Shown here in pieces: positions 2,147 through 8,862 of a stretch of DNA of 64,000 bases (positions within the stretch are counted from its first letter, which is position 1; each line of letters begins with the position of its first letter). The DNA comes from Arthrobacter sp. ERGS1:01 (GTDB lineage Bacteria > Actinomycetota > Actinomycetes > Actinomycetales > Micrococcaceae): positions 558,001 to 622,000 of the forward strand of contig NZ_CP012479.1 in NCBI RefSeq assembly GCF_001281315.1, written 5' to 3'. The notes beneath the pieces were generated by a model. The model did no database searches. It was not told the origin of the DNA and worked only from the letters and a program-made list of their open reading frames with translations. Position numbers and translations under genes: made by a program.

Positions 2147-4084
2147 TCAGGCCTTGGCCAGGCCGTGGTGGTAGGTGTTGCGGCGTTCCCGGCGCAACGG
2201 GTCGAGGCTGAACTGCGGGGTGAATAGTGGGACGCCCTGGTCCAGCCTCACCGTCCATGCACCTTGGTGGACGAGGTGGTGGTGCAGGCAGCAAAGTAGT
2301 GCGCCGTTGCTGATATTGGTTTCCCCGCCGTCCTTCCACGGGATGATGTGGTGCGCCTCGGTCCAATAGGCGGGCGCCGTGCAGTCGGGGAAGGTGCAGC
2401 CCATGTCGCGGGCGATGAGGATCTTCCGTTGCGCCGCGGTGAAGAGCCGTTGGGTGCGCCCGACGTTGAGGATGTCGCTGCCGTCGCCCAAAATAATCCG
2501 GGTCACGTCGGCGTCGCACAGCGCCTCCTCGAATGCGGCCAACTGTTGGGGCCCGCAGTAGGGGGCCAGGGCGATGCCCAAACTCTCGCCGGCGGCGTTC
2601 TTCCGATCGAGCTCGGCCTGCGTGGTGCTGATGAACAGCTGGGCCTTGGCTCCGCCATTCATGGGGAGCTTGCCGGTGCGCGCAGCCAGCCCAAGGCAGT
2701 CGATGAGCCCGTCCAACAACTTTTGGCCGTGGGTTCGGCGGTCCTGCACTGCAGGGTCAGTGGAGCGTGGATCGATGGGGTCCAGTCCGGGCAGGTCTTC
2801 GCCACTTCCGGGTTCGGGCACCGGGATGCCGTTGACCAGGTGCGGCCAGGGCGGCGGCTGATCGGGTGTGGAGTCGACTGCCGGTTCGTGGGGTCCGGAA
2901 TCGCTTCCCGGGTCCTCCGGTTCGCATTCACCCCTTGGCTCCTCCGGGATTCTTCGCGCCCATTCGGGAATCGGGCCTTGGGGCGGTGGCCACTGCGACT
3001 CCGCTGCCGCCCGGCCCGCCGCTTCCGGCCCCGCCGAGAAGATCCCGGCGCCTGCAAGGCGGACGAAGTCGGTGATATCCATTTGTCCGGGCATCGCTGC
3101 GTCACCGGGCATGGCAGTGCGGTGGTTCCTGGCGTCGCCGGGCAGGAGGGCGTCCTCTGGCACACCCGTACCGCCGGAATCACAGTCTGTAGCGCAGTCG
3201 GGATCGGCGTCGGGGGTGATGTCCTTGAAGTCGGTGTGGTTGGCCGGATTGGTGGACGAGCCGATGAATGCCATGGTGGTTTCGTATTGTGCAACGGTCA
3301 TGTGGCCGTCAAAGTGAACCATTCCGCGGCGCGCGTGATGGAAGAAGATTCCCTGCTTGGCCAGGAGTTCACCTTCGGTGGGCCGCTGACCGTCGGGGTC
3401 CAGCAGGTTCACGGCCCGCAGTCCAACTCGCCGCAGGAAGTCCGGCGGCTCGTTTGTGGCGTAGACGGTGAGGGTTTCCTCCAATTCCCGGACCTTGTCC
3501 TCGGGGATGCGCCCGGCATCCGCAAGGTGGGAGGCTTCGTCCGTAAAGGCGGAAATGATCAGTGCCTGTTCGCTGGACACGTCCCCGGCAAAGAACGCCG
3601 CCCCCAATGCCGGCTGGGCGGGCGGCGTGGTGACGGCGGTGAGAAAGTTGGTCGAGGGCAGGAAATGTTCGGCCAGGCGAAGCCGGCGATTGGCCTCGGC
3701 CTTGCTGAGGTTGAGCGACACAGTCAGCAATTCCGCCGGATTCTTGACGCCGGCCTGCTCAAACCGCCCGGCTAGGGCGCGGTCCGCGAGTTCGCCGGCT
3801 GCCTGGACTTGCATCCCCACAAGGAAACGGCCCAAATGTTCGAGGTTTTGGGCCCAGTCGACCACCGACGCATCGCTGAGGGAGCCGAGATCAAGCCCAA
3901 AAGGGGTACCCAGTGTCGAATACTGGCAATCGGCCTCGTCGGAGCCGGGCGTATGAGCGGGCGTTGGAACAGCGGCCCGGGACAGCGCGGCGGCGAGGGC
4001 CAACACCTGGTGAACATGGCCACCAAGGTCCCTTTTGCCGTCCGTGGAGCCGGGATGTCCCGGCGTCCTTGCCGTTGCTTCCAT
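2147..4084 (-). CDS. DUF222 domain HNH endonuclease (13E12 repeat family type)
   Basis: A 645-residue protein. The N-terminal half (about 60-340) is the helical DUF222 domain (LGRFLVGMQVQAAGELADRA). A long acidic, Pro-rich linker follows, then a C-terminal HNH nuclease motif: MGCTFPDC, WTEAHHIIPW and ALLCCLHHHLVH supply the Cys/His metal ligands. The family is multicopy in Arthrobacter, Mycobacterium and relatives and is often considered mobile; no function is established. I used the ATG at 4084, since longer in-frame extensions are AT-rich and have no similar signature. A LexA-box-like palindrome lies just upstream, and REP-like units lie just downstream. Confidence 0.85.
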   Translation of the reverse strand: MEATARTPGHPGSTDGKRDLGGHVHQVLALAAALSRAAVPTPAHTPGSDEADCQYSTLGTPFGLDLGSLSDASVVDWAQNLEHLGRFLVGMQVQAAGELADRALAGRFEQAGVKNPAELLTVSLNLSKAEANRRLRLAEHFLPSTNFLTAVTTPPAQPALGAAFFAGDVSSEQALIISAFTDEASHLADAGRIPEDKVRELEETLTVYATNEPPDFLRRVGLRAVNLLDPDGQRPTEGELLAKQGIFFHHARRGMVHFDGHMTVAQYETTMAFIGSSTNPANHTDFKDITPDADPDCATDCDSGGTGVPEDALLPGDARNHRTAMPGDAAMPGQMDITDFVRLAGAGIFSAGPEAAGRAAAESQWPPPQGPIPEWARRIPEEPRGECEPEDPGSDSGPHEPAVDSTPDQPPPWPHLVNGIPVPEPGSGEDLPGLDPIDPRSTDPAVQDRRTHGQKLLDGLIDCLGLAARTGKLPMNGGAKAQLFISTTQAELDRKNAAGESLGIALAPYCGPQQLAAFEEALCDADVTRIILGDGSDILNVGRTQRLFTAAQRKILIARDMGCTFPDCTAPAYWTEAHHIIPWKDGGETNISNGALLCCLHHHLVHQGAWTVRLDQGVPLFTPQFSLDPLRRERRNTYHHGLAKA

Positions 4085-4104
4085 GTACTCAATTTTACTC
4101 CGAT

Positions 4105-4120
4105 TCGACCGAATTTTCGA
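4105..4120. promoter_or_regulatory. Possible LexA (SOS) box upstream of the DUF222-HNH gene
   Basis: TCGACCGAATTTTCGA matches 10 of the 12 defined positions of the actinobacterial/Gram-positive LexA box TCGAAC-N4-GTTCGA. It lies 20 bases upstream of the HNH start on the minus strand, in the AT-rich gap before the divergent gene. DUF222/13E12 genes of M. tuberculosis are reported to carry SOS boxes, which is why I looked for one. Two mismatches keep this tentative. Confidence 0.3.
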
Positions 4121-4265
4121 GTAAGAATCGAAACTGTGGATAACTATTAGAACTAATCTCGAAGATGTGGAGGAATCAATGAACATGCACCCGGCGATAC
4201 CCTTGATACCGTCACCACGGCACGGTTTGGCCGTCCACCAGCCGTCCATCCCCGAACGGAGCGCC

Positions 4266-4565
4266 ATGATTGAGCTGCTGATCATCAACGACTGTCCCAA
4301 CTCGGCGCCCGCAAAGGACTTGTTCCTCCGCGCCCTGGCCCTGGAAGGTTTGGACCCCCGGAGCCTGGCCGTCAAGGTCATCGAGAACGACGACGACGCT
4401 GCCGCCGCCGACTTCCACGGCTCGCCCAGCTTCGTGATGGACGGGCAGGACCTCTTTCCGGCAACCGGCGAACCGGCAGTGTCCTGCCGGGTCTACGCCA
4501 CCGAAACCGGCCTTGCCGGTTTGCCGGAGCTCGACGTCCTGCGCAGGGCAATCCGCGCAGCCTGA
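4266..4565 (+). CDS. Small thioredoxin-fold protein (alkylmercury lyase-like family)
   Basis: About 99 residues starting IELLIINDCPNSAPAKDLF, which matches the first strand and CPN turn of small thioredoxin-like proteins annotated near alkylmercury lyases. FHGSPSFVMDGQDLF resembles the conserved cis-Pro strand. There is a single Cys where thioredoxins have CxxC, so disulfide exchange would be monothiol at best. The start is uncertain: ATG 4266 fits the domain border and has GGAG four bases upstream. ATG 4179 has a better Shine-Dalgarno (GGAGG, five-base spacing) and would add 29 residues with no recognisable domain. Confidence 0.6.
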   Translation: MIELLIINDCPNSAPAKDLFLRALALEGLDPRSLAVKVIENDDDAAAADFHGSPSFVMDGQDLFPATGEPAVSCRVYATETGLAGLPELDVLRRAIRAA

Positions 4566-4690
4566 CCGTGCCCTTTCGCCAAAGCTGGTTGTCCCACGCA
4601 ATCAGGTACACCTAGACGGTTGCCTCTCATTGGAACGGGTCGCCTCCCATATGCTGAGTCGCAAATGAGATCTTGTCGTAGCCTGAACGC

Positions 4691-6016
4691 ATGCTGCCCG
4701 AAATGCTTGACTACATGTCTACCCGGGAATTGTCCATGTCCATCTGGACGTTGATCCTTCTCCTCGTCTTGCTTCTGTGGCCCGCAACGAGGGCATCCAT
4801 CAAGGACGCAGTTCGGTCCATGTTGCATTGGAAAGTCTCTCTCTCGTTCGCCCTCTACACGACGTATCTGGCCAGCGCGGTGTGGCTTATGTGGTCTCTT
4901 CACCTTTGGGATCAAGAGCTGCTTGGAGGGACTGTCATTTGGCTACTAGGCAGTGGGTTCATCTTGCTTGGGAACGCCGTTACCGAGGCTCCGAAGCAAC
5001 ACCACTTTTTCAAGGGGGCCGTCCTCGACTCGCTCAGAGTCGTAGCCGTCGTTGAATTCGCCGTCGCAGCTCGACCATTCGCTATTGGCACTGAACTTTG
5101 GCTGGTTCCAGCATTGGCCGTGCTCACAGTCTTCTGGGCGGTGTCAACGACTGCTGATAATGCGTCCGGCGGATCGAAGTTTTGGGTAGTAATCGCGGCC
5201 ATGGTGGGCCTAACTCTTATCGTGTTAAGCGTTAGGGACCTGATACTCCATCCGGCCAACGATGTATTCGACGACGTAAGGGCATTCTTTCTTCCCATTC
5301 TCTTGGGCCTTGCCGCGATACCAGCGGCATTTATTGCCGCCGTCATTGGGGCCTACGAACTCTTCGCCACAAGGCTAAGTCGGTATCCAACTGGACATTC
5401 CCTACCACCAAAGGTGGTACTGGGCCTGGTCGCATCCTTGAACTGGGATCTATTCGCTATTGATCGATTCCCAGGGCAATGCGGATACGCTGCTGCGCGA
5501 TTGGGGACCTTTGCTGACGCGCGGTCGCTGGTGGCGCAATACCGTAATGACGAGCGCGCTCGCGAAGATCGACGTGCCGCAGCGAAAAGAAGACTGGAAG
5601 AGTTGGCTGACGTTCAAGGCACAGATGAATCCGGAAGGCAGTTGGACCGCCGAGAGTTCGAAGAAACGAAGCGGGCCCTCGAGTGGTTGCAAATCTGCTT
5701 GACGAGTCGTCATCACAACACCGGCAGATTTCAAGCGGACATTCTTGAAGTGATGGGTAGCTTCCAAACCCAGGGGCTCCCAGATCCGCATGGGATTTGT
5801 GTGCGCGTTCGAAAGGACGGACAAGCTTGGTTCGGATATCGAGAAACACCATCCGGATACTACTTTGGTATCGGCGCGAACGGCGCCGGCCCAAGTCAGT
5901 GGGTCTACAGTATGGAAGTCCCTCCGGCGGGCTACCCTAGTTCAAGATCCCAGGGTTGGACGAACTCGCTTGTTGCAGATACCCCACTGGAATGGCTCCC
6001 GGAAACGATGGACTAG
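4691..6016 (+). CDS. Polytopic membrane protein of unknown function in an AT-richer island
   Basis: A 441-residue protein that I do not recognise. About seven hydrophobic segments fill residues 15-235. A charged, probably cytoplasmic helical stretch follows (about 280-335, rich in Arg/Glu, coiled-coil-like), then a globular C-terminus (about 345-441, rich in Gly, Tyr and Trp). Base composition and codon use are clearly AT-richer than all neighbours, a sign of recent transfer. No Shine-Dalgarno is visible, but TAGCCT six bases before the ATG is typical of leaderless actinobacterial starts. It faces the retron-type reverse transcriptase gene tail-to-tail. A retron or defence-related role would be speculation. 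Confidence 0.6.
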   Translation: MLPEMLDYMSTRELSMSIWTLILLLVLLLWPATRASIKDAVRSMLHWKVSLSFALYTTYLASAVWLMWSLHLWDQELLGGTVIWLLGSGFILLGNAVTEAPKQHHFFKGAVLDSLRVVAVVEFAVAARPFAIGTELWLVPALAVLTVFWAVSTTADNASGGSKFWVVIAAMVGLTLIVLSVRDLILHPANDVFDDVRAFFLPILLGLAAIPAAFIAAVIGAYELFATRLSRYPTGHSLPPKVVLGLVASLNWDLFAIDRFPGQCGYAAARLGTFADARSLVAQYRNDERAREDRRAAAKRRLEELADVQGTDESGRQLDRREFEETKRALEWLQICLTSRHHNTGRFQADILEVMGSFQTQGLPDPHGICVRVRKDGQAWFGYRETPSGYYFGIGANGAGPSQWVYSMEVPPAGYPSSRSQGWTNSLVADTPLEWLPETMD

Positions 6017-6020
6017 ACCA

Positions 6021-6176
6021 ATGAGATCGCCTCGATCCAAATCGCAAGCTAAAGGGAAGCCCCCCAGCTCCGAGATCATCGCAAGGCATGGAACGTCGCA
6101 GCCCATTGAAAACGCATACACAAGACTATCCTCGAATCTCGGCGGTTGTATCTGGCCTTCTGAACCGACCAGGTGA
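6021..6176 (+). CDS. Possible small ORF (51 codons) after the membrane protein
   Basis: An ATG four bases after the preceding stop opens a 51-codon frame of Lys/Arg/Ser-rich sequence without a recognisable domain. There is no clear ribosome binding site apart from coupling to the upstream gene. A 107-codon minus-strand frame (5942-6265) covers the same DNA. Neither shows convincing coding character. From 6177 to 6303 I see no feature. Confidence 0.2.
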   Translation: MRSPRSKSQAKGKPPSSEIIARHGTSQPIENAYTRLSSNLGGCIWPSEPTR

Positions 6177-6303
6177 AACGGCAAGACGTAGATAGGACGG
6201 GTGGATTCGCGCCAATGGCTGCGCAATATGTATAGCGTGTTACGAATGCCCGGAAACCCCGGCATAATCAGTCTGCATCACGAGCCATCTTCACCAGCCA
6301 AAA

Positions 6304-7734
6304 TCACCAGTCGATCAACGTGAAATCGGCCAGGAGCCTGGCCCCACGCCCCGGATTGACGCTGGCAACCCAGGCAATCCGGCCCCGGAGCTGCGCGCGG
6401 AAGTCCGGGTGCCCATCCCGGTTTTGACCGTCGGGTCCGTGGACCACGCAGTTGTGCAGCACCGCCTTGAGCCGGTCGAAGTCCCGCCGCGAAACATTCG
6501 TGTGCCGGTTCACCACGACGCCCGTCACGGACTGGCGTACGCCGGCCTTGTGGACCCGCGTCTTTGTCGCGTTCAAGGTGTGGCCCTCGTCGGCAACAAT
6601 CCGCGCCGCGCCCTTGAGGAACGCATCGGCGCGGCGGGCCAGGACAGGACCACCGCTGAAGGCGAGGTCGTCGGCGTAACGGGTGTAGACGGCATCGAAC
6701 CCGCCGGCCCAGCCCTGCAACCTCGAATCAAGCCGTCGCAGCGTCAGGTTGGCCAGCGCAGGGGAGGTGGGTGCACCCTGTGGAAGATGGGCCTTGCGCA
6801 GCGCCTGGCGCAAGGCAAAACGATCCTCCGCGCTGCCGCCGGGCGGCATCTCGGCGATGACGCCCACGGGAACGGCGTGCGTGCACAAGCCCGTCAGCCG
6901 GTGCGCCACACTTTCCGGGTAGCCGGCCGCCCGCAACACCCCGTACACCTTGCCCGGGGTGACGTGCGCAAAGAATGCCGCCAGGTCAAGGTTGATGACC
7001 ACGTCCCGTCCCGTGTGCCGGGCCGCACCGCTCACGGCGCTGCGGCCGGGCACAAATCCGTGGGCTGAAGCGTGCAGGGGTATTCCCGCCAGCAACTCAC
7101 GCAGCACGGTGCGCTGGACGGCCCGCAGCCGGGGGTGCGGGATCTCCAGCAGCCGCGGCACCCGTCCCTGCCGGGTCCGCCACTGGTAGCGGTAGTGCTG
7201 CAGCCGGGGATTTCCGGTGGTCCGGTTCCAATGTTTGGGATCGGCAAACCATTCCAGCCGGCCGGCGTCCACGCCCAGGATCGCGGCCAATTCCGCCAGG
7301 GTGTCCAGCCGCGGGACCCCGGCAGGCACCCCGGCAGCCTCGCCCATTCCGGCCGGAGGCACGGCATACCGGGCGATCCTGATCGGCTTGCACTGCAGAT
7401 CGGCCTTCGCCACCGCCTCGGCGAATGGAGCGCTGCCAAGCACGACGGCGGTCAGCTCACGCGGGGCGTCCGCCGGGGGACGGCGGTAGCTGGCCAGGAC
7501 GTGGCCGGCCAGCGGACCCAGCCACCGGCGTCGAGCACCCAGGACGGTGGCGCCGGCCTCGACAAGGTCCGGCTTGGACCAGCTTTCGGCGGCGAGGAAG
7601 GCATGGGCCAGGGCCGTTGCAACGGTTTTGGGGGAGGGGCGCGGGGTGCGGCCCAGCACGGCCGACGCCGGAGTGGGGCCAGGTGTGGAGTCAGCCAGGG
7701 GGCCAGGCCGTGTGGAGTCGGGAGTGTGTTTCAT
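6304..7734 (-). CDS. Retron-type reverse transcriptase with N-terminal extension
   Basis: A 476-residue RNA-directed DNA polymerase. Motifs in order: SAHGFVPGRS (retron-type region before motif 3), VINLDLAAFF (first catalytic Asp), LPQGAPTSPALANL, then RYADDLAFSG with the YADD catalytic pair near residue 352. SVTGVVVN and LKAVLHNC match the VTG and thumb region of retron RTs. A domain of about 165 residues precedes the polymerase, ending in LEWFADPKHWN and LQHYRYQW; such extensions are known from myxobacterial retron RTs such as Mx162. GC content matches the chromosome. The start has no good Shine-Dalgarno and sits in an ATGA overlap with a small upstream ORF. A retron-like msr-msd candidate lies just upstream. 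No effector gene is encoded in the same direction. Confidence 0.85.
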   Translation of the reverse strand: MKHTPDSTRPGPLADSTPGPTPASAVLGRTPRPSPKTVATALAHAFLAAESWSKPDLVEAGATVLGARRRWLGPLAGHVLASYRRPPADAPRELTAVVLGSAPFAEAVAKADLQCKPIRIARYAVPPAGMGEAAGVPAGVPRLDTLAELAAILGVDAGRLEWFADPKHWNRTTGNPRLQHYRYQWRTRQGRVPRLLEIPHPRLRAVQRTVLRELLAGIPLHASAHGFVPGRSAVSGAARHTGRDVVINLDLAAFFAHVTPGKVYGVLRAAGYPESVAHRLTGLCTHAVPVGVIAEMPPGGSAEDRFALRQALRKAHLPQGAPTSPALANLTLRRLDSRLQGWAGGFDAVYTRYADDLAFSGGPVLARRADAFLKGAARIVADEGHTLNATKTRVHKAGVRQSVTGVVVNRHTNVSRRDFDRLKAVLHNCVVHGPDGQNRDGHPDFRAQLRGRIAWVASVNPGRGARLLADFTLIDW

Positions 7735-7904
7735 GGGGTGCGGCGGCTTCCGGATGACCCGTCAGTCTGTGCGGCCGCCCTGCTGCGCGGAGCGCTGCGA
7801 GGCGGCTGCGGTGCTTGCAGGAGGTCGTTCTTCGTCCCCCGGGGTATCCCCGGAGAGGGCAGGGCACGCAAATGCCCACCCACCTCATCCGGAATCCGTC
7901 GCAT
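7731..7904 (-). CDS. Possible 57-codon ORF overlapping the RT start (ATGA)
   Basis: An ATG at 7904, six bases after TACGCT (a leaderless-type arrangement), opens a 57-codon frame whose TGA overlaps the RT start codon as ATGA. The product is rich in Arg, Pro and Ser and has no domain I recognise. It covers the candidate msr-msd exactly, so it may be chance, or it may serve to couple translation to the RT, whose own ribosome binding site is poor. Confidence 0.25.
   Translation of the reverse strand: MRRIPDEVGGHLRALPSPGIPRGTKNDLLQAPQPPRSAPRSRAAAQTDGSSGSRRTP
7748..7894 (-). ncRNA. Candidate retron msr-msd non-coding RNA
   Basis: Read on the minus strand, the segment begins with TTCCGGATGA (7894-7885) and ends with its exact complement TCATCCGGAA (7757-7748), 13 bases before the RT start. 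This matches retron a1/a2 repeats, which flank msr-msd. Between them lie three hairpins: GGGCA/TGCCC (7877-7862), CCGGGG-ATA-CCCCGG (7853-7839), and a long GC-rich stem-loop (7809-7771) with nine-position outer arms and one mismatch. A G directly follows a1, the usual place of the branching guanosine. TACGCT at 7916-7911 could be a -10 element. The core TCCGGA is itself palindromic, so part of the a1/a2 match is automatic. An overlapping 57-codon ORF is an alternative reading. Confidence 0.5.
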
Positions 7905-8037
7905 GCTGCCAGCGTAGCGGACGGGGGTGGCCGGTGGTCCATAGGAAACGCCAAGGTGGGCGGCGTACTGTGGATGTCTAATAGTGCCCGGCCTGCCGGA
8001 CCGGTGCGCACAATGGTATTCAAGGCAGGTGGCATGG

Positions 8038-8862
8038 ATGGCGGATAACCGCCAAGGACAGCTCGGATCGACAACGCGGGACCGCCGGGGATCGCGGCGT
8101 CGAACGGCGGCGTTGGCGGCGGGCCTGCTGGCCATGGCCGCCGCGCTGCTGCTGGCGCTGTCCGGCTGCCAGGGAGTAGCCGCGGCACAGCCCCCCGCTT
8201 TGGCGAAGGCGCCCGCGGCCCCGCACAAGGTGGTGGTGATCGGCGATTCCCTCAGCACCGGATTCGGCACCACGGCCCAGGACGCCTGGCCCAACCTGAT
8301 CAACACGGACCCCGTCGACATCGACGACCAGTTGCAACTCTTCAACGCCTCCACCAACGGCAGCGGCTACGTCTCAATCGGCACCGGCAATTCCACCTTT
8401 GGATCGCAGGTGAAGGACGCCGTCACTTCCGACACCCAGCTGGTGTTGTTCTTCGGTTCGGAAAACGACATGGGCCAGGCGCCCGCCGCGATTGGCGCGG
8501 CCGCGTCCGCCGCCTTTGCCGAGGCCAAGGCCAAATCCCCGCAGGCCGTCATGCTGGTGGTGGGGCCGCCGTCGTACACGGACCAGCCGGAATCGGACCG
8601 CCTGGCCGTCCGTGACGAAGTGCAGGACGCGGCCGTGGCCGTGGGTGCCATGTTTGTGGATCCCATTGCGCAGGGCTGGATCATGGGGCACGTCGATGAC
8701 CTGATCGGTCCCGACGGCGACCATCCCTCCGTGGCCGGCCAGCACTACATCAAGGCGCAGATGGAGAAACTCATCAAGGAGGCCCTCAGCCAGCCGGCCG
8801 TGCTGCCCGCCGTCACGAAGGCTCCCACGGCTCCCGCAACGGCCCCCGCCGTGGTGAAATAA
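8038..8862 (+). CDS. SGNH/GDSL-family hydrolase lipoprotein
   Basis: A 274-residue secreted lipoprotein. An Arg-rich N-terminus and hydrophobic stretch (about 23-41) end in the lipobox LSGC with Cys44. The mature part starts with VVVIGDSLSTG, the GDSL block with the nucleophilic Ser; FGSENDM fits the block III region and DGDHPS near the C-terminus supplies the Asp/His pair. Family members are esterases or acyl hydrolases acting on lipids, sugar esters or cell-wall acyl groups; the substrate cannot be read here. The ATG at 8038 gives the best signal peptide. The following esterase gene begins three bases after the stop, so both are probably co-transcribed. Confidence 0.8.
   Translation: MADNRQGQLGSTTRDRRGSRRRTAALAAGLLAMAAALLLALSGCQGVAAAQPPALAKAPAAPHKVVVIGDSLSTGFGTTAQDAWPNLINTDPVDIDDQLQLFNASTNGSGYVSIGTGNSTFGSQVKDAVTSDTQLVLFFGSENDMGQAPAAIGAAASAAFAEAKAKSPQAVMLVVGPPSYTDQPESDRLAVRDEVQDAAVAVGAMFVDPIAQGWIMGHVDDLIGPDGDHPSVAGQHYIKAQMEKLIKEALSQPAVLPAVTKAPTAPATAPAVVK

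Follow-up and report, generated by a model that had tools for sequence, protein, structure and literature searches.

A reverse transcriptase gene and its upstream RNA in Arthrobacter sp. ERGS1:01 very probably make up a complete retron

We analysed a stretch of 64,000 nucleotides (nt) from Arthrobacter sp. ERGS1:01 (contig NZ_CP012479.1, positions 558,001 to 622,000; hereafter the window, in whose coordinates all positions are given). Its minus strand carries a gene for a retron reverse transcriptase (RT) of 476 amino acids (aa) at 6304-7734 and, directly upstream, an RNA of about 165 nt. Two repeats mark this RNA on the same strand, TTCCGGATGA at 7894-7885 and TCATCCGGAA at 7757-7748, with 127 bases between them and 13 bases between the second repeat and the RT start at 7734. 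A first-pass annotation made from the letters alone had proposed an intact actinobacterial retron at this place. Its repeat positions and both spacings, as well as the G after the first repeat, proved correct, and the proposal itself is now well supported, since homologues of the RT keep a covarying stem between the two arms (a1 and a2) of the RNA.

The RT is recognized by PADLOC and Pfam profiles, by its predicted structure and by its ratio of nonsynonymous to synonymous substitution rates (dN/dS). Its top PADLOC profiles are RT_other (PDLC02949; E 3.1e-183, 608.3 bits, starting at residue 24) and RT_outgroup (PDLC03740; E 2.7e-171, 568 bits, starting at residue 36), both of which reach the end of the protein and are described in the library as 'retron' only. 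RT_XIII follows far behind (E 8e-89, 296.8 bits, from residue 139 only). The same two profiles also rank best in 5/5 relatives tested (L117, L113, L155, L140 and L099). Pfam RVT_1 matches the protein as well, and the NCBIfam model retron_St85_RT gives 156.5 bits, below its 235-bit cut-off.

The motifs picked out in the first pass, LPQGAPTSPALANL, YADD and VTGVVVN, are all present. YADD occupies residues 353-356 and is invariant in a 46-row alignment, as is H240, the last residue of the GAARH (236-240) in region X, which contains an AXXH. Region Y has its VTG within VTGVVVN at residues 403-409. Passages of PMC6868368 give VTG, AXXH and a pair of a1/a2 arms next to a conserved G as features of retrons. 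The predicted structure, with a mean predicted local distance difference test (pLDDT) score of 92.5, consists of a helical N-terminal domain (about residues 28-120) followed by an RT fold (about 126-476). The nearest solved structures are retron RTs, the closest being 7v9x (Retron-Eco1); the VIA structure list spans mainly residues 134-476 and thus barely tests the N-terminal domain.

We aligned the whole RNA over 18 upstream regions from the genus (17 distinct sequences). The a1 arm (7885-7903) has 19 pair positions with the a2 arm (7739-7757), of which 17 are paired in the window, and a2 stops 4 bases short of the RT start. The pairing described earlier as a 10-bp repeat therefore stands, but its length does not, as the stem continues as far as 7903 and 7739 to give about 19 positions. 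Directly after a1, within GAGG, lies the candidate branching G at 7884, from which priming is predicted; it is G in 18/18 genus sequences. Priming contexts of validated retrons include GAGC, CAGC and TAGC, according to passages of PMC6868368. The first msr hairpin (7857-7881) combines a variable loop with a conserved foot of 4 pairs (2 double-changed, 94% of alignment cells paired). The second, CTCCGGGGATACCCCGGGG at 7837-7855, has 8 pairs, 7 of them invariant, with 100% of cells paired. The msd hairpin, which is the template part (7771-7809), has a lower stem with changes on both sides in 7/7 pairs and a nearly invariant upper stem of 6 pairs, in which 98% of cells pair and the window leaves one position unpaired. 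It is separated from a2 by the unpaired ACAGACTGACGGG (7758-7770), a conserved ACAGACAG-like stretch in alignment A2. The hairpins seen in the single sequence thus hold up across the genus.

The stem formed by a1 and a2 shows changes on both sides at 14/19 pair positions among the 17 distinct sequences, and each genus sequence pairs at 17-19 positions (18/18 positions with letters in L008). The self-complementary core of the repeats had been counted as a weakness of the match; this concern falls away, for L007 and L010 have lost the self-complementarity of the core and still pair at 19/19 positions. RNAalifold predicted 48 pairs, 25 of them double-changed in at least one sequence. Its helix 91-95/156-160 was left out because it is broken in several sequences and competes with the last a1/a2 pair. 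The resulting written-down structure of 44 pairs has 97.6% of cells paired and 24 pairs with double changes. None of 500 shuffles reached its covariation score, 14/500 reached its number of further pair types, and sliding the structure along the alignment lowered the paired share to 41-49%. This structure was partly chosen from the same alignment, and tests on other sequences therefore weigh more. When 51 distant sequences were fitted to the covariance model, 39/44 pairs were double-changed, including 19/19 of the a1/a2 pairs, in an alignment that, being made by model fit, leans towards that structure.

Folding the upstream region, the check put forward in the first pass, gave a result of the same kind: 7910-7740 folds at -89.4 kcal/mol compared to -75.6 +/- 4.8 for shuffles (z-score -2.92; 0/200 as low). 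Against Rfam release 15, the window gives no match that reaches the gathering threshold, and a relaxed search at six loci yielded one sub-gathering match, in the Myxococcus orthologue L117 and away from the retron RNA. Further upstream, TACGCT at 7911-7916 (minus strand) is a predicted -10-like element of the form TANNNT. Such an element is found 33-35 bases ahead of the branch region in 18/18 genus genomes, with two further TANNNT within the 18 upstream stretches searched, and transcription likely starts at about 7904.

RNA and RT go together. Among 23 genus genomes, 20 have some RT match, and 18 of these encode the RT at full length, without internal stops and at 60-100% identity; a covariance model built from 18 sequences matches exactly these 18. 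The remaining genomes have no RT match (G004, G008, G013), a fragment (G022) or a distant RT (G007). The genus search also returned four extra weak partial matches, three of which lie antisense to the hairpin in an intact copy. Across the family, an RT match is present in 55/395 genomes, 20 of which belong to the genus and several others of which are weak or distant. All 12 non-genus family loci kept (L022-L033) carry the RNA at E 2.6e-25 or better, and the model finds no RNA at the fragment and distant-RT loci L019, L020, L051 and L052. The fragment in G022 (L019/L051) is C-terminal, 81 residues long and 60% identical, and its neighbourhood differs from that of the window.

In the best 80 of 574 loci from named records, which cover several phyla, the RNA is found at the 5' end of the RT, before or overlapping its first codons, in 78 (E < 0.01). 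These 78 include 4 training genomes (L076, L077, L079 and L143), and L080, L081 and L084 have scores equal to family loci and so were probably already counted among L022-L033. At the other two, the contig ends 38 bases before the RT match (L098) or the match is partial only (L135). Matches are weakest at L142 (E 0.0079) and at L117, the Myxococcus orthologue (E 0.0037); folded alone, L117 adopts the same plan (z -2.66; 2/200 shuffles as low). RT and RNA thus co-occur in Actinobacteria, Myxococcus, Burkholderia, Acidobacteria and Planctomycetes. A profile built from these RTs matched 7674/8000 candidates at E <= 1e-20, a set that may include other retron types. The retron is also present in a record titled Vibrio cholerae 35D (L082), which has neighbour clusters in common with L081 and L084 of Arthrobacter agilis and is probably mislabelled or contaminated. 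At L077, a 31-nt match to the msd hairpin (3956-3986, minus strand; 22.8 bits, E 0.007 in the search of the named loci and 0.03 in that of the genus genomes) lies about 1.8 kb from the intact RNA, and may be either an orphaned msd-like copy or a chance match.

The RT has a dN/dS of 0.10-0.21 in 8 pairs, compared to 0.005-0.05 for rpoB, and on these values is under purifying selection. Judged from the identity of the enzyme and the anatomy of the RNA, both read from sequence, we consider it very probable that the window holds a retron that is complete and under selection and consists of one RNA and one RT gene. Several observations weigh against this. The N of NAXXH is replaced by G in the window RT; passages of PMC6868368 report NAXXH in 14/16 validated retrons, with the N substituted in Ec48 and Mx65. 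The column of the branching G is G in only 38/51 distant sequences, where the alignment may be off. Outside the genus, 2 RT matches contain an internal stop (G229 and G331) and some are split or partial. Finally, the RT and rpoB trees agree in part, sharing 8/15 splits (Mantel r 0.54, p 0.0001).

To survey possible partners, open reading frames (ORFs) of at least 80 aa were clustered in 97 loci, consisting of the window, 18 genome stretches and the 78 named loci, with two genomes present twice. Of the 25 widest clusters listed, 11 besides the RT's own were placed relative to the RT. In the clusters inspected, no gene travelling with the RT was seen in these 97 loci, a result that applies to ORFs of that size within about 6-8 kb and contig ends and does not cover unlinked genes. 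The widest placed clusters are shadow ORFs overlapping the RT, followed by ATP-binding cassette (ABC) transporter proteins, which are found in 16/97 loci and change places. The remaining placed clusters (acyl-CoA synthetases, transporters and similar) occur in 6-9 loci each. Further clusters in 6-8 loci come mostly from loci of one shared chromosomal neighbourhood. No equivalent of the linked or fused effector of typed retrons was seen here: the clusters inspected include no neighbour at a constant place across lineages, and the N-terminal parts of 4 proteins gave no recognised fused domain.

A 441-aa ORF (4691-6016, plus strand) was considered as an effector and rejected: it lies on the opposite strand in a low-GC stretch, and none of the other 20 stretches contains a counterpart. 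Seven proteins match it, itself included, and several membrane helices are apparent by eye. The low-GC stretch spans 4450-6290, with a GC content of about 0.55 compared to mostly 0.63-0.74 in the flanks. A DUF222-HNH endonuclease gene (2147-4381, minus strand) also lies near the retron, and its cluster is found near the RT in G006, G017 and G020 as well (4/21 stretches).

The N-terminal domain is kept along with the RT in Actinobacteria, Myxococcus, Burkholderia and Planctomycetes, and is shared by an RT of the Myxococcus qinghaiensis genome (45% identity from window residue 36). Pfam gave no match on the N-terminal parts of 4 proteins save one below cut-off (E 0.17), and a sequence search of the PDB with the domain returned 4 matches, the best at E 0.11. 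Among free-standing candidates for the domain there are 43 matches of 72-172 aa, many of them single and on short contigs, which are perhaps pieces of RT genes. Within the loci compared, the N-terminal domain is the sole linked candidate output module.

By analogy with other retrons, the transcript would start at a1, and a1 and a2 would pair. The RT would then bind the msr hairpins, prime from the 2'-OH of G7884 and copy msd from 7758 towards the second hairpin, so that 7758-7770 would be copied first. The product would be a branched RNA-DNA molecule (multicopy single-stranded DNA, msDNA) with about 52-79 nt of DNA, comprising a 13-nt 5' tail and a hairpin, and a predicted DNA 5' end of CCCGTCAGTCTGTG. 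The strand predicted to be copied from 7758 folds with 13 free 5' bases and a hairpin, but is no more stable than shuffles (z -0.59). Phage defence would be the default expectation from other retrons.

The identity of the retron and the anatomy of its RNA are surer than the way in which such a particle would act. One quite conceivable possibility, which competes with the output step only, is that RNA and enzyme work as a retron and act via an unlinked effector or a host nuclease. The lack of a linked partner seen in 97 loci speaks for it, as do the titles of several top-matching solved retrons, which name an effector or further components. Conservation of the N-terminal domain across phyla speaks against it, being what is expected of a module needed wherever the RT goes, and could equally reflect a docking site. 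We tentatively propose instead that the RT-msDNA particle itself delivers the output, the helical N-terminal domain being its effector or docking site. A broader and more doubtful extension would be that these retrons are self-contained across phyla, the N-terminal domain rather than a partner gene serving as effector or sensor and the gene plus its RNA forming the whole system.

Comparison with known systems bears on the identity of the retron. A likeness to Mx162-type RTs had been suggested, and part of this holds: Retron-Mxa1 (Mx162), of type XIII, is likewise a retron RT with an N-terminal extension. This extension is not shared, however, with the Myxococcus qinghaiensis RT L221, which we take to be Mx162-like and which PADLOC places in type XIII; the alignment starts only at window residue 139 (35% identity), with no N-terminal alignment. 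The far lower RT_XIII score (296.8 against 608.3 bits for RT_other) agrees with this. On these profiles and alignments, the window retron is not of the Mx162/type XIII kind and fits PADLOC's untyped RT_other/RT_outgroup. The Myxococcus qinghaiensis genome carries three further type XIII retron RTs (L220, L221 and L222) beside its relative of the window RT, and model R1 found nothing better than E 0.7 at these three. Passages of PMC6868368 describe Mx162 and Sa163 as probably vertically inherited, and Retron-Mxa2 (Mx65) as having an extended N terminus, a substituted N in NAXXH and a priming G in GAGC. Compared by this published motif description only, the window RT resembles Mx65 in its N-terminal domain, GAARH and GAGG, so that kinship with Mx65 is a lead. 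Over the RT part, the solved structure closest to the model is that of Retron-Eco1 (Ec86; 7v9x, 26-28% identity). Its chain aligns from model residue 126 onwards, so that nothing in it corresponds to the N-terminal domain, and by its title it was solved with an effector. A literature search for retrons and Arthrobacter returned unrelated titles only, and one for orphan or effectorless retron phrases returned none, which is no proof of absence from print.

It is very unlikely that the RT belongs to another kind of RT system that has an RNA of its own, for example the defence-associated reverse transcriptases (DRT), which likewise pair an RT with a neighbouring RNA. The profile of Drt2, the DRT class scored individually, does match the protein weakly, at 30.9 bits against a curated cut-off of 390. 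In contrast, the retron profiles score 608 and 568 bits, in a different library from Drt2, and the nearest structures are those of retron RTs. The a1/a2 arms with their adjacent conserved G, the VTG and the AXXH are likewise the retron features named in passages of PMC6868368.

A relic, in which RT and RNA are intact but out of use, is similarly improbable. It would fit the genomes G004, G008 and G013, which have no RT match, G007 with a distant RT only, G022 with a C-terminal fragment only, and the retron-free site in G013 and G022. It fits poorly with the dN/dS values of the 8 pairs, the compensatory changes in the RNA and the lack of any internal stop in 18 genus RTs. The history of the retron is not a simple one. 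The RT is vertically inherited in part, its tree being correlated with that of rpoB; strictly vertical inheritance was dropped as an explanation, given the 8/15 splits common to the RT and rpoB trees, both of which have weakly supported nodes, and the retron occupies several different neighbourhoods within the genus. In G000 and G006 it lies between a conserved gene (947-2047 in the window) and a GDSL lipase gene (7984-8862). G013 and G022 have a 947-2047-type gene and a GDSL lipase gene close together without the retron, and in G002 the same two flanking genes enclose the DUF222-HNH gene only. This fits inheritance within subclades together with loss and relocation; retron-free sites alone do not separate loss from never having had the retron. 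A recent plasmid origin is not supported, as all 133 matching plasmid records are below 60% identity (the top-ranked record has 45% over 88% of the RT, and the others listed reach at most 49% over 71%). Neither is a recent phage origin, with 21 matching phage records and 25-32% identity among the matches listed.

Least probable of all is a reading of the hairpins before the RT as a leader, a terminator or a coding leader peptide instead of a template RNA: the window has an ATG at 7904 and one branch-to-a2 frame is open in 16/18 genus sequences, which says little in such GC-rich DNA, but the ATG is absent in 6/18 sequences, the branch-to-a2 length varies from 123 to 128 nt and so breaks the frame, and in several phyla this RT is preceded by the same fold. 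Conservation as protein-coding sequence, which the first-pass annotation had named as an outcome that would refute it, was not seen, as there is no codon periodicity. Variable columns in the RNA region spread over the three phases as 22/21/22 (six sequences) and 10/12/5 (five sequences), whereas in the RT gene the three codon positions vary in 332/239/443 of 454 cases. A coding role of the upstream region was rejected on this phase-free variation and the frame-breaking lengths.

Retrons are usually described as an RT, an RNA and a toxic effector. A lineage found in several phyla without a linked partner seen turns what partner-less retrons do into a testable question, and here it takes a concrete form: the RNA and the residues concerned are defined, and the genus is one from soil that can be cultured. 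An RNA that has no Rfam entry could, in addition, be annotated with the covariance model.
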